Assembly (NCBI GenBank): GCA_020852275.1
Contig: JADZBE010000042.1
Location: forward strand, 62,001-126,000
Length of the DNA stretch: 64,000 nt
Source of the DNA: Phycisphaerales bacterium
Lineage (GTDB): Bacteria > Planctomycetota > Phycisphaerae > UBA1845
Reading direction: 5' to 3'
How positions within the stretch are numbered: position 1 is the first letter of the stretch; every line of letters begins with the position of its first letter. Below the pieces are notes generated by a model. It was given only the letters and a program-made list of their open reading frames with translations. It was not told where the DNA came from and ran no database searches. A program made the position numbers and the translations under genes. This document shows, in pieces, positions 9,105-18,946 of this stretch.

Positions 9105-9214
9105 TGTGGCATCGGTTTCCAAACCGGTGGCTTGTAGCACAGGTTTCCAACCCGTCTTGCATGTGGCACTGGTTTCCAACCGGTGGCTGTAGCACAGGTT
9201 TCCAACCTGTGCCA
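9105..9214. repeat. Cluster of four GGA/TCC-loop palindromes
   Basis: Four head-to-tail hairpins of the CACAGGTT and CACCGGTT types, some with single mismatches, lie just upstream of the metalloprotease start. They would lie in its 5' leader or promoter region if transcription starts further upstream. Confidence 0.85.
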
Positions 9215-14007: not shown

Positions 14008-14423
14008 GCGAGTCGCGCCGATTGGACCTCTCTCTACGAGCAGGGTCAAGCGCGGCGGACAAGGCCTGGCGCGATGAGTGTGGGCAGCCGCGCCGCGGCC
14101 TCTGCGCAGTAGGGTACGGCCCGGCATGCTGGTTGGAACTTGGGGAGGGGATGAACCGCGAGCGGCGGGGCGCCGCACGCGCCCGCTGTCGCGGAGCCTT
14201 GCCGCTGCTGCGGCCTCGCGCAGTTTCCGCGATCCCAGATGCCGGTCGCGGACGATTTCACTCCCTTTTGCATCCCGGGGCATCCGATAGGACACTTCGG
14301 CGTTAGTACCTCCAGCGGGCGGTTCGGGATCGTCCGGCGGCCGGCCCGCTTTGGGCACGGGTCGAGGTCTTTTCCGTGGCCGCGGCGGGGGTCGCGCTGC
14401 TCGGCGGGTTGCATGGGTTGAGC
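14008..14423. other. Divergent promoter region between helicase and permease-SPFH genes
   Basis: These 416 bp hold no convincing gene. The frames are short and Arg-rich. Since both flanking genes point outwards, two promoters are expected here, but no consensus boxes were identified with confidence. Confidence 0.5.
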
Positions 14424-16742
14424 ATGACTGCGTTAGCCAAGGCCATCTGGTGGATTCTGTACGAGTCGAGCCTCTACCTGCTCGTGGGGTTCGCGTTGGC
14501 CGGGGTGTTCAACATGCTGTTTGCGCACTGGCGCGGCCTGGCGGAGCGGCTGAAGCGCGGGCGGATCCGGTCCGTGCTGTGGGCGACGTTGATCGGGGCG
14601 CCGCTGGACCTGTGCTCGTGCAGCGTGCTGCCGGTGGCGATGACGCTGCGGCGGCGCGGGGCCAGGCCCGGGGCGGTGTACTCATTTGTGATCTCCGTGC
14701 CCGAGGTGGACATGGTGTCCATCCTCCAGACGAATGCGCTGCTGGGGCCGGTGATGGCGGTGGTTCGCCCGGTCACGGCGCTTGTCACCGCGCTGGTCAC
14801 CGGCGTTCTGGCGAATTTCCTGGAGCCGTGGCTGGAGAAGGGGGGGGGCGGATCGGGCGGAGCGGCCGGAGCGGAAGCGGGACCTGAGGGCGCGGGCAAG
14901 GCGTCGGATTCTTGCGCGGAGGAAAGCTGCGGCTGCGCGGGCGAGGCGGCGAGTATTTCAGATTCCTGCGGGCATGAGCATGGGCCATCCTCACAGGTTG
15001 GAAACCTGTGCCACACACAGGTTGGAAACCTGTGCCACACCTCACAGGGGGGCGACTCTTGCCACAGTCACCGGTTGGAATCCGGTGCCACAGGCGGCGG
15101 TGCTGGTCTGACTGAAGGCGGCGGCTCCGCGCGGACTGATGTCCGCGGCTCGATGCCGGCTGAAGTCGGCAGCTCAGTTGCTTGGGTGCGGCGGGCGGCA
15201 CGGTTTGGGTTCGTGGAATTCTTCGACGACCTGATCGGTTCGCTGCTGCTCGGCGTCGTGCTGGGCGGATTGATCGGCGTGCTGCTGCCGAAGATCGGAC
15301 TGGATCGGTTTGCCGGCGGGTCGTTCATCGCGCTGGTGGCCATGCTCCTGCTGGCGATTCCCATGTACGTCTGTGCGACGGCGAGCACGCCGATGGCTGT
15401 GGGGATGATCGTGGGCGGCGTCAGTCCCGGCGCGGCGCTGGTGTTCCTGCTGGCCGGACCGGCGACGAACGCCGCGGGCATTCTCGTCCTGGCGCGGGAG
15501 ATGGGGCGTCGCGGCGTCCTGCTGTACCTGGCGTGCATCTTCGCCATCAGCCTGCTTGCGGGCGCCGCGCTGGATGCGGCGCTGGCGCGCGGCTGGGCGA
15601 CGATGCCCGCGCTGACGCTGGTGGTAACGACGGAAAGCGTCAGCCCGATCAAGGTCGGCGGCGCGGTGCTGATGATGGCGCTGACGCTGGCGAGTCTTCG
15701 CCGCACGCATCTTGTCCGTCGCATGGCCGCGGGTCTTGCCGCGCGGACGGGATTGCCGCTGACCGGACCGCGGCTGGCGCTTTGCATGGCGCTCGTGGCC
15801 GCGATGGCGTATGTCGGCTCCGGCTTCTTCAGCGTTCCTCCCGGCTCGCGCGGGATGGTGCTGAAGTTCGGGCGGGTCTCCGCGTCGGACCTTCCACCGG
15901 GTCTGCACTTCAACTGGCCTTACCCGCTGGGCGGGCGGCGGATCGTGGCGGTGGATCGCGTGCGTCGCGTGGAACTCGGGTTCCGCAGCACGCAGGAGGA
16001 AATGGTGCTGGTGGATCCGTCGCGCGACCCGTACCGCGACGAGTCGTGGATGCTGACGGGCAACGAGGACATCATCGACATCCGCTGGACGGTGCAGTAT
16101 CGCCCGCGCGAGGGGGCCGCGGCGCTGCAACGCTACGCGTTTGGCGTGGAGGCTGTCGGCGAGCTGGTGCGGGCGGCGGCGGAAGCGGCCATCCGCGAAG
16201 TTGTGGCCGTGCGCGGGATTGATCGGCTGCTGACGGAGGATCGCGCTGAGGTGGAGAGGCGGATCGCCGAGGATGTGCTGGGTCCGATGCTGGACCGCTG
16301 GGACGCGGGTGTGCAGATCGTGGACGTGCAGCTCGTGGACGTTCACGCACCCGCGCCGGTGCATCCGGCGTTCCGCGACGTGGCCAGCGCCTCCGAGCAG
16401 AAAATGGGCAAGATCAACGAAGCACTGGACACGGAAGGCATCACGATCAGCCGCGCGAACGCCGGCGCGACGGAGCGCGTGGAGACGGCGAAGGGACGCG
16501 CGGCGCAGATTGTCGGGCGGGCGGCCGGCGACACGGCGCTGTTCGCGGCGCAGCGCGAGGCGTTCGCAAAGCATCCGTCGGCGACGCGGCTGGAGGCGTA
16601 TCTGGCCCGGATGGAAGCGGTGCTGCCGCGGCTGAAGAAGTATGTTTCGCTGGTCGGCAAGGGCGACGCGCAGATCGACTTGTGGATGGGGGCGGCGCCG
16701 AAAGGCGCTCCCGCGCCTGTGCCGCCTTCGGAGAAGGATTGA
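14424..16742 (+). CDS. Fusion of a PF03773-type (SO_0444/ArsP-like) metal permease to an HflK-like SPFH domain
   Basis: This single 772-residue frame joins two normally separate proteins. Residues 1-137 and about 255-445 form the two halves of a PF03773 permease: APLDLCSCSVLPVAM in the first, and PMYVCATASTPM plus AGPATNAAGI in the second. Between them is a 115-residue Cys/His-rich linker (for example CAEESCGC, CGHEHG and two VGNLCHT units), as expected for a Cu/Zn-type efflux permease. Residues 452-470 form one more membrane segment. Residues 471-740 are an SPFH/HflK domain (VPPGSRGMVLKFGRV, PPGLHFNWPYPLG, then the long Ala/Glu/Arg coiled coil). HflC and another HflK follow. The linker DNA contains intergenic-type palindromes at 14992-15092. 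A start at GTG 14376 is possible but unsupported. Confidence 0.85.
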   Translation: MTALAKAIWWILYESSLYLLVGFALAGVFNMLFAHWRGLAERLKRGRIRSVLWATLIGAPLDLCSCSVLPVAMTLRRRGARPGAVYSFVISVPEVDMVSILQTNALLGPVMAVVRPVTALVTALVTGVLANFLEPWLEKGGGGSGGAAGAEAGPEGAGKASDSCAEESCGCAGEAASISDSCGHEHGPSSQVGNLCHTQVGNLCHTSQGGDSCHSHRLESGATGGGAGLTEGGGSARTDVRGSMPAEVGSSVAWVRRAARFGFVEFFDDLIGSLLLGVVLGGLIGVLLPKIGLDRFAGGSFIALVAMLLLAIPMYVCATASTPMAVGMIVGGVSPGAALVFLLAGPATNAAGILVLAREMGRRGVLLYLACIFAISLLAGAALDAALARGWATMPALTLVVTTESVSPIKVGGAVLMMALTLASLRRTHLVRRMAAGLAARTGLPLTGPRLALCMALVAAMAYVGSGFFSVPPGSRGMVLKFGRVSASDLPPGLHFNWPYPLGGRRIVAVDRVRRVELGFRSTQEEMVLVDPSRDPYRDESWMLTGNEDIIDIRWTVQYRPREGAAALQRYAFGVEAVGELVRAAAEAAIREVVAVRGIDRLLTEDRAEVERRIAEDVLGPMLDRWDAGVQIVDVQLVDVHAPAPVHPAFRDVASASEQKMGKINEALDTEGITISRANAGATERVETAKGRAAQIVGRAAGDTALFAAQREAFAKHPSATRLEAYLARMEAVLPRLKKYVSLVGKGDAQIDLWMGAAPKGAPAPVPPSEKD
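14992..15092. repeat. GGA-loop palindromes inside the permease-SPFH coding sequence
   Basis: Two perfect copies of CACAGGTTGGAAACCTGTG (14992-15010 and 15016-15034), a degenerate copy, and one CACCGGTTGGAATCCGGTG (15069-15087) lie in frame in the linker of the fusion protein, where they encode VGNLCHT-like units. Two further hairpins of a different type, with TGAT and GAAG loops, follow at about 15128-15172. The same palindromes are intergenic elsewhere in the window. Confidence 0.88.
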
Positions 16743-16805
16743 CGGGCAGCGGTCCGACGAATGCGAGGGCGAGCACGCGGGCCTCGCGGCTGGAGCAAGA
16801 CGGTC

Positions 16806-17756
16806 ATGAAGAAATGGGTTTTTCTCGCATTGCTCGCCTTGGCGCTGGCGGCGGGGTATTCAAGCGTCGTCATCGTCGATGAGACGCAGATGACCGTCAT
16901 CACGCGTTTCGGCGACCCGACGCGCACGCTCACCGATCCGGGATTGTACTTCAAAGCTCCGCTGCCCGTGGACCGCGCGTTGGCCGTGGACAAGCGTCTG
17001 CTGGTTCTCGACGTGCCCAGTCGTGAGGAGGCGCCGCGGGAGTTTCTCACGCTCGACAAGAAGAACATCGAGGTGAGCACGTACGCCTGCTGGAAAGTGA
17101 CGGACGCGCTGCAGTTCATGAAGACGCTCACGTCGCGCGAGAGCGCCGAGGCGATCCTGCGCGACGCGGTGCTTTCCGCGTGCGGCAAGACGCTCGCCAG
17201 CCACCCGCTGGGCGAGATGTTCTCGATCACCGAAGGACAGATGAAGCTGGGCGACATTCAGCGCACGATCCACGAGACCTGCGAGGCCCAGCTCGAAAAG
17301 GCGTACGGCATCGACATCGTGGACGTTCGCCTGAAGCGCATCAACCTGCCGGAAGCCAACCGCAGCAGCGTGTTCGAGCGCATGCGAAAAGAGCGGCAGC
17401 GGTTCGCGTCGCAGTACCTCAACGAAGGAGAGGAAGAGGCCGTCCGCATCCGCTCCCAGGCGAAGACGAAAGAGCAGGAGATCCTCGGACAGGCGTACGA
17501 GGAAGCCAAGCGTATCGAGGCCGAAGCGGAAGCCAAGGCGTACGCCATCTATGCGGAGGCGTACGAGCGGGATCCGGAGTTTTATGAGTTTCTGCGGAAC
17601 ATGGAATCGCTGGAGAAGACGTTGACCCAGAGCACGACGCTCTTTCTTCCGGCGGATCACCCGTACCTCAAGGGTCTGACGCCGTGGCTGGCGCTGCCCA
17701 AGCCGATCCCGACGACGGACGTGACGACGCCACCCCCCGGCACATCGGGAGAGTGA
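16806..17756 (+). CDS. hflC: HflC-like SPFH protein
   Basis: This 316-residue protein has one N-terminal membrane anchor (KKWVFLALLALALAAGYSSV) and an SPFH domain starting VIVDETQMTVITRFGDPTR. It is followed by a long charged coiled coil (EEEAVRIRSQAKTKEQEILG) and a hydrophobic C-terminal block LTQSTTLFLPADHPYL. The motif RINLPEANRSSVFERMRKER is characteristic of HflC. HflK and HflC form a large periplasmic cage around the FtsH protease and modulate its activity. ATG 16806 was chosen because the hydrophobic anchor begins there. The gap to the upstream fusion gene is 63 bp, so the two are probably co-transcribed. Confidence 0.88.
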   Translation: MKKWVFLALLALALAAGYSSVVIVDETQMTVITRFGDPTRTLTDPGLYFKAPLPVDRALAVDKRLLVLDVPSREEAPREFLTLDKKNIEVSTYACWKVTDALQFMKTLTSRESAEAILRDAVLSACGKTLASHPLGEMFSITEGQMKLGDIQRTIHETCEAQLEKAYGIDIVDVRLKRINLPEANRSSVFERMRKERQRFASQYLNEGEEEAVRIRSQAKTKEQEILGQAYEEAKRIEAEAEAKAYAIYAEAYERDPEFYEFLRNMESLEKTLTQSTTLFLPADHPYLKGLTPWLALPKPIPTTDVTTPPPGTSGE

Positions 17757-18013
17757 AACGCAGGAACGCGCAAGCAAACGGATGAACGAAGGCAGCCATC
17801 GCAGCCCGTCGCGCCAGCGGGGGCGGGGGGGCCATTGCGAATGGCGAATGGCGCATGGCGAAGGGCGAACAGCAGGCAATGCGATCAGGAGTCCTCATGC
17901 AAGTGAGGGACCGCTTGTTGAGGCATCGAATCGCAGAGATCCGGAAGCGCGGAAGCCTGAGAACGTCAATGCGTCATGAACGGCAAGAGGGGCGAGTTTG
18001 ATTGGATGCGTGA
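17757..18013. repeat. Gap with GGCGAATG-type heptanucleotide repeats
   Basis: This 257-bp gap separates the hflC-like and second hflK-like genes. About 17833-17870 is built from imperfect units of GGCGAAT/GGCGCAT, a short-period repeat seen in several other gaps of the window. No gene is visible. Confidence 0.6.
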
Positions 18014-18946
18014 ATGACCCGACCGGGGCGTAGAAAAACATGGATTCGCCGGGTGGCGCTCCTTGCGGCCACTCTCGCGGCGGGTGCGTGGGGATACAGC
18101 GGGTTCTACTCCATCGCGCCCAGCGAGCATGGCGTGGTGCTGCGCTTCGGTCGGGTCGTGGCGGACAACGTGCCGCCGGGGATGCACTACGCCTGGCCCG
18201 CCCCGATCGGGCGCGTGCTCAAAGCGCAGCTCACCGAAGTGCGCCGCATCGAAGTGGGTTACACGATGCTGGGGCGCAAGTTCACCGAGGCGCGCCGCTC
18301 CGACCTTATCACCGGCGACGAGAACATCCTCAAGATGATGCTCGTCGTGCAGTACCGCGTGGCCCCGCCGCCGACGGCGTTTCTGCTCCGCGCGGAGGAT
18401 CCGCACTGGCTGGTGGAGCGCGCGATGGAGGCGAGCCTGAGCCGGCGGGTGGCGTCGCTGCCGGTGGACGCGGTGCTGACGACGGCGCGCAGCGAGCTGC
18501 AGATTCGCGTGCTGGAGGATGCGCAGGCGCTGCTGGATTCGTATGGCGCGGGCGTGACGCTGATTGATGCGAATCTGCAGGAAGTGATGCCGCCGCTGCC
18601 GGTGAGCGACGCGTTCACCGACGTAGCCAGCGCCAAGAAGGACGCGGAGCAGCGCATCGAGCAGGCACGCGAGGCCGGCGCGCGGACGCTGGCGAATGCA
18701 CGGTCGGAGGCGCAGCGCCTGACGGAGGAGGCCCGCGGCAGGCGGGCGGAGCGAGTCTCGAAGGCGGAAGGCGACGCGCAGCGGTTCGTCCGCCTGCTCC
18801 CCGAGTACCGTCGCGCGCCGGATCTGACACGGAAGCGGCTGTACCTGGAGGCGATGGAGAGAATCCTGTCGCGCGCGAAGATCTATGTGATTGAGCCGGG
18901 CGCAGGCGAGACGCGCCCGCGCATCACGGTGCTGGAGGATCGCTGA
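18014..18946 (+). CDS. hflK: HflK-like SPFH protein (second copy)
   Basis: This 310-residue protein has a membrane anchor (VALLAATLAAGAWGYSGFYSI) followed by the HflK-type SPFH start IAPSEHGVVLRFGRVVADNVPPG. Other HflK features are DLITGDENILKMMLVVQYRV, INAxLQEVMPP-like DANLQEVMPPLPV, and an Ala/Glu/Arg coiled coil. It is closely related in plan to the SPFH half of the fusion protein upstream (compare the two stretches PSEHGVVLRFGRV and PPGSRGMVLKFGRV). The cluster therefore encodes two HflK-type subunits and one HflC. One may replace the classical HflK, or the two may form mixed assemblies. Confidence 0.87.
   Translation: MTRPGRRKTWIRRVALLAATLAAGAWGYSGFYSIAPSEHGVVLRFGRVVADNVPPGMHYAWPAPIGRVLKAQLTEVRRIEVGYTMLGRKFTEARRSDLITGDENILKMMLVVQYRVAPPPTAFLLRAEDPHWLVERAMEASLSRRVASLPVDAVLTTARSELQIRVLEDAQALLDSYGAGVTLIDANLQEVMPPLPVSDAFTDVASAKKDAEQRIEQAREAGARTLANARSEAQRLTEEARGRRAERVSKAEGDAQRFVRLLPEYRRAPDLTRKRLYLEAMERILSRAKIYVIEPGAGETRPRITVLEDR

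Follow-up and report, generated by a model that had tools for sequence, protein, structure and literature searches.

A predicted metal exporter fused to an HflK-type SPFH domain heads a conserved three-gene unit with hflC and hflK

Introduction

Why would a bacterium encode a membrane transporter and a building block of a membrane cage as one polypeptide? The question is raised by a 64,000-nucleotide stretch of a Phycisphaerales bacterium genome (GCA_020852275.1, contig JADZBE010000042.1, positions 62,001 to 126,000; here called the window, with positions counted from its first letter), in which a permease of the SO_0444 type and an HflK-type SPFH domain share one reading frame that is followed by hflC and a second, unfused hflK. 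HflK and HflC form a 12+12 subunit cage enclosing FtsH (PMC12005517), and human stomatin domes enclose AQP1 and UT-B, as described in a preprint that proposes a "membrane-encapsulin" role for SPFH proteins and leaves its consequences open (PMC12407830). It is an open question how SPFH cages select and regulate the membrane proteins they enclose, the cargos of stomatin and HflKC being non-covalent and hard to define. Since the cargo considered here would be wired into the cage wall, and at least two unrelated exporters take that place, the effect of caging on transport becomes testable by cutting the fusion.

Results

One frame joins permease and SPFH domain

The fusion frame opens at 14376 (GTG) or 14424 (ATG) on the forward strand and continues to 16742 through permease, membrane helix and HflK-type SPFH domain. 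We place the start at ATG 14424, because the first residues of homologues align there, giving a gene of 772 codons (14424..16742) whose order of SO_0444-type permease, transmembrane helix, HflK-type SPFH domain and coiled coil is supported by profiles, relatives and a structural model. Pfam matches the product to ArsP_1 (PF03773; 4e-30, residues 27-398) and Band_7 (2e-14, residues 486-683; both in 788-aa numbering), and the best NCBIfam models are the SO_0444 Cu/Zn efflux transporter for the permease half and HflK for the SPFH half. The permease half scores 293.6 bits against NF033936 (SO_0444), slightly below the curated cut-off of 300, and several related fusions exceed it (L067, 373.3 bits; L092, 363.2 bits). 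The fused SPFH domain of the window protein reaches 138.1 bits against TIGR01933 (hflK), below the cut-off of 159.4, for which reason we call it HflK-type rather than HflK; its fused relatives range from 113 to 221 bits, some exceeding the cut-off. In an alignment of 11 relatives the sequence is conserved to either side of the junction and across the HflK membrane helix, and G+C at third codon positions stays high over the permease/SPFH junction, its sole dip coinciding with the linker between the permease halves.

The SO_0444 motifs CSC, YxCA..STP and GPATN, spread over both permease halves, are invariant or almost so in 42 fusions. The first half (residues 2-132, 14427..14819) is ordered in the model and carries the CSC motif at residues 64-66 (14613-14621), with C64, S65 and C66 invariant; the second (residues 251-388, 15174..15587) holds PxYxCA..STP and GPATN, again as invariant columns. 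Thus the preliminary description of this locus, made from its letters alone, was right to see an uninterrupted 772-codon frame, a complete PF03773-type permease with its Cys and Thr-Asn motifs and a metal-efflux family. A sigma-70 promoter scan gave no match.

Between the permease halves lies a disordered linker (residues 142-246, 14847..15161; predicted local distance difference test, pLDDT, <50) that is His/Cys-rich in most relatives. A palindromic repeat, CAGGTTGGAAACCTGTGCCAC, has been inserted there in frame as two exact copies and one with three mismatches (14994..15091), bringing Cys/His-containing repeats into the linker. It recurs in the window at 1797-1843 and 9134-9209 and counts 187 copies in the genome (109 forward, 78 reverse, at most two mismatches), against 0 for the reversed control. 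A selenocysteine tRNA called by ARAGORN inside the fusion gene (14927-15018) is attributed to the repeat insert and discounted as spurious, Rfam making no such call. An SO_0444-family protein with selenocysteine is on record (PMC13188914); the fusion itself was discarded as a selenoprotein candidate, the CSC motif in the window having Cys.

Predicted structure and membrane topology

An AlphaFold2 monomer model built on 42 aligned fusions (mean pLDDT 75.5, predicted template-modelling score 0.61) orders both permease halves, a membrane helix at residues 448-465 (15765..15818), SPFH1/2 and a long coiled-coil helix at residues 646-716 (16359..16571). The SPFH (Band_7) domain (15831..16424), with the signature HAPxxVHxAFRDVASA, is supported by Pfam, alignment and PDB matches; by both HMMER and Foldseek the top PDB match is E. 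coli HflK from the HflKC cage, and the permease half had no sequence match among solved structures. Hydropathy and charge mark a segment rich in Arg and Lys, probably cytoplasmic, ahead of the HflK helix, with on average 5.6 Lys/Arg before it versus 2.4 after; this fits a permease whose C-terminus lies in the cytoplasm and an SPFH domain in the periplasm.

The fusion is inherited together with hflC and hflK

Downstream on the same strand, hflC (16806..17756; 171.9 bits against TIGR01932, cut-off 134.4) and an unfused hflK (18014..18946; 207.5 bits against TIGR01933, cut-off 159.4) both exceed their curated cut-offs, in agreement with the gene names given in the preliminary description, and hold conserved places. 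For hflC the start at 16806 (MKKWVF) is likelier than the alternative at 16761. The two genes are separated by 257 bp in the window and abut or overlap in most relatives.

A scan of 84,980 genomes of named species with the fused SPFH part gave 53 loci whose counts describe this fused SPFH type and are no census, because the scan pattern came from the fused domain. Over these loci the order fusion-hflC-hflK on one strand is nearly invariant. Permease half, fused SPFH domain, HflC and HflK have diverged together over 38 loci, their pairwise distances being correlated with r = 0.89-0.92, which partly reflects shared species history. When 153 SPFH domains are placed in a tree, those fused to a permease make up one clade (SH-like approximate likelihood-ratio test, SH-aLRT, 93) and 11 of 12 ATPase-fused domains, described below, a separate one (95), while the downstream HflKs group with canonical HflK (95) and the HflCs stand apart (100); the tree method being quick and the deep branches weak, one and two fusion origins look alike. 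On this comparative evidence the three genes are a real conserved unit, inherited as a whole, and the unfused HflK in nearly every complete locus suggests that some HflK places carry no exporter.

Exporter-SPFH units recur across phyla

Own hidden Markov models and gene calls placed permease and SPFH domain in one frame at 44 of the 53 loci, in Planctomycetota, Pseudomonadota (including cultivated isolates of Bradyrhizobium), Myxococcota, Binatota, Gemmatimonadota, Eiseniibacteriota, Tectimicrobiota and Latescibacterota, with hflC and hflK nearly always next. Within the class of the window genome, 11 of 298 genomes (its own included) have the intact frame, and a contig edge truncates a twelfth copy. 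Further Planctomycetota have fusions of 740-960 aa in which the SPFH domain is in frame and after which another SPFH gene comes next (for example G395:C221, G352:C362, G312:C109, G430:C14, G330:C287, G478:C136 and G466:C457). No plasmid- or phage-borne fusion was found, the matches there being separate HflK or permease proteins. A Chloroflexota locus (L086) was rejected as an unfused state, since the gene that follows is VanW-like and no transporter.

Some loci are larger. Three Bradyrhizobium loci (L064, L065, L067) have an extra HflC-type gene and an acetamidase/formamidase-family protein upstream, making a five-gene same-strand unit. In two Binatota loci (L108, L109) a further, divergent permease-HflK trio, which has a His-rich linker and a Peripla_BP_6 protein, lies on the strand opposite to the first at a distance of about 10 kb; in L108, Znu-type genes lie between the trios.

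Other exporters take the place of the permease

At five of the 53 loci (three Acidobacteriota, one labelled Aminicenantes, one Lentisphaerota) the position of the permease is occupied by a P1B-type ATPase. These fusions measure 930-1105 aa and all five carry E1-E2 ATPase and HAD domains followed by an HflK-type SPFH domain; the four scanned with NCBIfam models (L087, L093, L095, L107) score 531-566 bits against TIGR01525 (cut-off 346). DKTGT and VACPCA, the latter with the CPC motif, are present, and in one lineage the linker that joins ATPase to HflK is strikingly rich in His. These fusions, too, are followed by HflC and/or HflK genes, with L093 stopping at a contig edge, and about 11 of 199 genomes in an Acidobacteriota sample encode a full-length ATPase-HflK fusion. 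Predicted exporter-SPFH units, each with one of two unrelated kinds of pump, are thus spread over at least ten phyla. Directly 3' of hflK, ATPase-type loci have related genes of 157-163 aa (L087:8588-9061, L097:8893-9366, L107:8223-8714), of which the L087 copy lacks a Pfam match.

Two further arrangements were seen beside these. An EamA-type transporter-HflK fusion followed by HflC and HflK (L110:7427-9811, reverse strand) is the second trio of a single genome labelled Gemmatimonadetes, whose other trio is of the permease type and is accompanied by a ZIP gene, in a phylum sample of two genomes. A parallel trio consists of a 650-770 aa protein with multiple transmembrane helices and a C-terminal HflK, then HflC, HflK and ABC-type ATPase and permease genes; it occurs in the window's own genome (G000:C7:357.7-361.3 kb, L052) and at L111, L112 and L113, the transmembrane part being without a Pfam match. 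In the Lentisphaerota genome, which has two such trios (L111, L112) besides its ATPase fusion, a standalone P1B-ATPase gene sits between trio and ABC genes.

Zinc importers adjoin some of the trios

A Pfam scan and clustering of neighbouring genes revealed ZIP zinc transporter genes at eight trios, upstream of five and downstream of three, and components of ZnuA, ZnuB or ZnuC type beside seven, so that 15 of the 53 loci have a ZIP or Znu-type importer beside the trio; they belong to Planctomycetota, Gemmatimonadota, Myxococcota and Binatota. DtxR-type regulators, SCO1, CobW and MerC are other neighbours. As a control, whole genomes hold at most two distinct ZIP genes (zero in 6 of 20), and five of the eight genomes with a ZIP gene at the trio have no other. 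At about one ZIP per 4 Mb, the estimated chance of finding one within 3 kb of a trio is about 0.15% per genome, versus the 8 of 53 observed. SO_0444 is needed under Zn or Cu stress, its Cu/Zn efflux annotation coming from mutant fitness and complementation (PMC3219624), and a relative in Nitratiruptor is induced by Cd and Cu (PMC10092412). The substrate of the fused exporter is probably zinc or similar ions.

Discussion

We propose that the products of the trio build a periplasmic SPFH cage of the HflKC type, where the subunits at some of the HflK positions bear an N-terminal heavy-metal exporter, a reading to which we give a probability of about 0.6. The pump is probably locked into the cage because it forms one protein with a piece of the cage wall, beside two more cage genes. 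The C-terminus of the exporter would lie in the cytoplasm, the HflK helix would cross the membrane and the SPFH dome would stand in the periplasm, with fused HflK, HflC and unfused HflK assembling together into one HflKC-type dome. The exporter would thereby be fixed in a fenced membrane patch and release its metal (most likely Zn2+, perhaps Cu or Cd) beneath the dome or at its side, so that the cage could localise, protect or gate it; the unfused HflK may occupy ring places that have no room for a further transporter.

Several points weigh against this proposal. Hydropathy predicts eight segments in the window protein, which leaves its exact topology unsettled. The structure predictions are of monomers, so the sharing of one ring by three proteins is inferred, and the model of the ATPase fusion was discarded for having too few sequences (pLDDT 52.6). 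By Pfam, the window neighbours are UvrD, a YeiH-like exporter and cysteine dioxygenase; there being no metal gene in these flanks, the zinc link for this genome is drawn from relatives in other phyla. Finally, the substrate evidence for SO_0444 is mutant fitness in Shewanella.

Of the alternatives, the one that fares best, though we consider it unlikely, is the quality-control reading of the preliminary description: the HflK part would mainly tie the stability of the exporter to FtsH, the protease being recruited by the cage and clearing exporter that is damaged or, at low metal supply, not needed. HflKC does enclose and regulate FtsH (PMC12005517), and in the window genome and four relatives the HflK matches above cut-off are confined to the trio, which may there be the principal HflKC of the cell. 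However, 15 of 20 other genomes encode, besides the trio, a strong standalone HflK, mostly with adjoining HflC, and there the trio is thus an extra, dedicated set; furthermore, ftsH does not adjoin the trio in the genomes checked (in the window's own genome its single copy lies on another contig, G000:C24), and beyond HflK/HflC homology we found no hint of a link to FtsH.

Less probable still, we judge, is that no exporter-bearing cage exists and that the SPFH part is mainly a periplasmic domain that takes metal from the exporter for binding or sensing. It would account for the His residues found where SPFH2 meets the coiled coil (residues 641 and 647 of the window protein), present in 45 of 47 permease fusions, the first of them also in all 12 ATPase fusions and uncommon at that place in downstream or canonical HflK, and it agrees with the His/Cys-rich linkers of many fusions. 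Yet the junction motif was within the scan pattern itself, so that its conservation is partly selected, and a mere binding domain would hardly need the hflC and hflK that almost always accompany the fusion. An assembly error or frameshift, which the preliminary description had named as its refutation, or a chance read-through of two adjacent genes, is refuted by the same frame in independent assemblies from eight phyla, isolate genomes of Bradyrhizobium included, and by a codon-position signal unbroken over the junction.

Returning to the exporter-bearing cage, a broader and more tentative version, to which we give distinctly less credence than to the proposal for the trio itself, is a general "caged exporter" system: the dome wall would covalently hold a cargo transporter drawn from interchangeable exporters, be it an SO_0444 permease, a P1B-ATPase or, in one case, a transporter of the EamA type, and metal would pass into a periplasmic space that the dome closes off and that is coupled to uptake through ZIP or Znu. 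More generally, the fusions give HflK/HflC-type proteins a probable part in metal homeostasis, and many fusions so far undescribed receive a function that can be tested.

As for novelty, a literature search returned no description of an exporter-SPFH fusion or operon; it covered few subscription journals, and an earlier description is possible. A survey of SPFH proteins in 497 genomes placed HflK/C (SPFH3) in no planctomycete and made no mention of permease or ATPase fusions (PMC2636767). The parts are known; their recurrent covalent combination with interchangeable exporters appears new. The preliminary description had likewise called the trio a plausible new unit, a view upheld by the conserved order, the co-divergence and the absence of the combination by name from the literature found; its reading of the unit, the efflux family and the novelty stood, and what it had missed was the spread over at least ten phyla, the P1B-ATPase substitution and the zinc importers.

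Comparison with known systems brings out what is shared and what is not. Like the E. coli HflK-HflC-FtsH cage (7VHP, 7WI3, 9CZ1, 9CZ2), the trio encodes HflK and HflC types adjacently, with transmembrane helix, SPFH1/2 and coiled coil; unlike it, the trio adds a second HflK-type subunit with a complete N-terminal transporter, and it has no ftsH nearby and often zinc importers alongside. With the SO_0444 family (NF033936, PF03773) it shares a complete permease with conserved Cys, Thr-Asn and GPAT motifs, here fused to HflK, and with the P1B heavy-metal ATPases (TIGR01525) the CPC motif of the ATPase that can replace the permease, which differs in its C-terminal HflK domain and, in some, a His-rich linker. 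The QmcA-YbbJ SPFH-NfeD complex (8Z5G) is also a bacterial SPFH cage with a membrane partner, but that partner is an unfused NfeD protein and no transporter. Along with the HflKC-FtsH cage, the nearest precedent is the stomatin dome (PMC12407830), an SPFH dome that holds transporters in a membrane patch; the stomatin assembly is eukaryotic, homo-oligomeric and non-covalent, with water and urea as cargo, and by analogy the bacterial fusions look like a hard-wired dome of the stomatin type.

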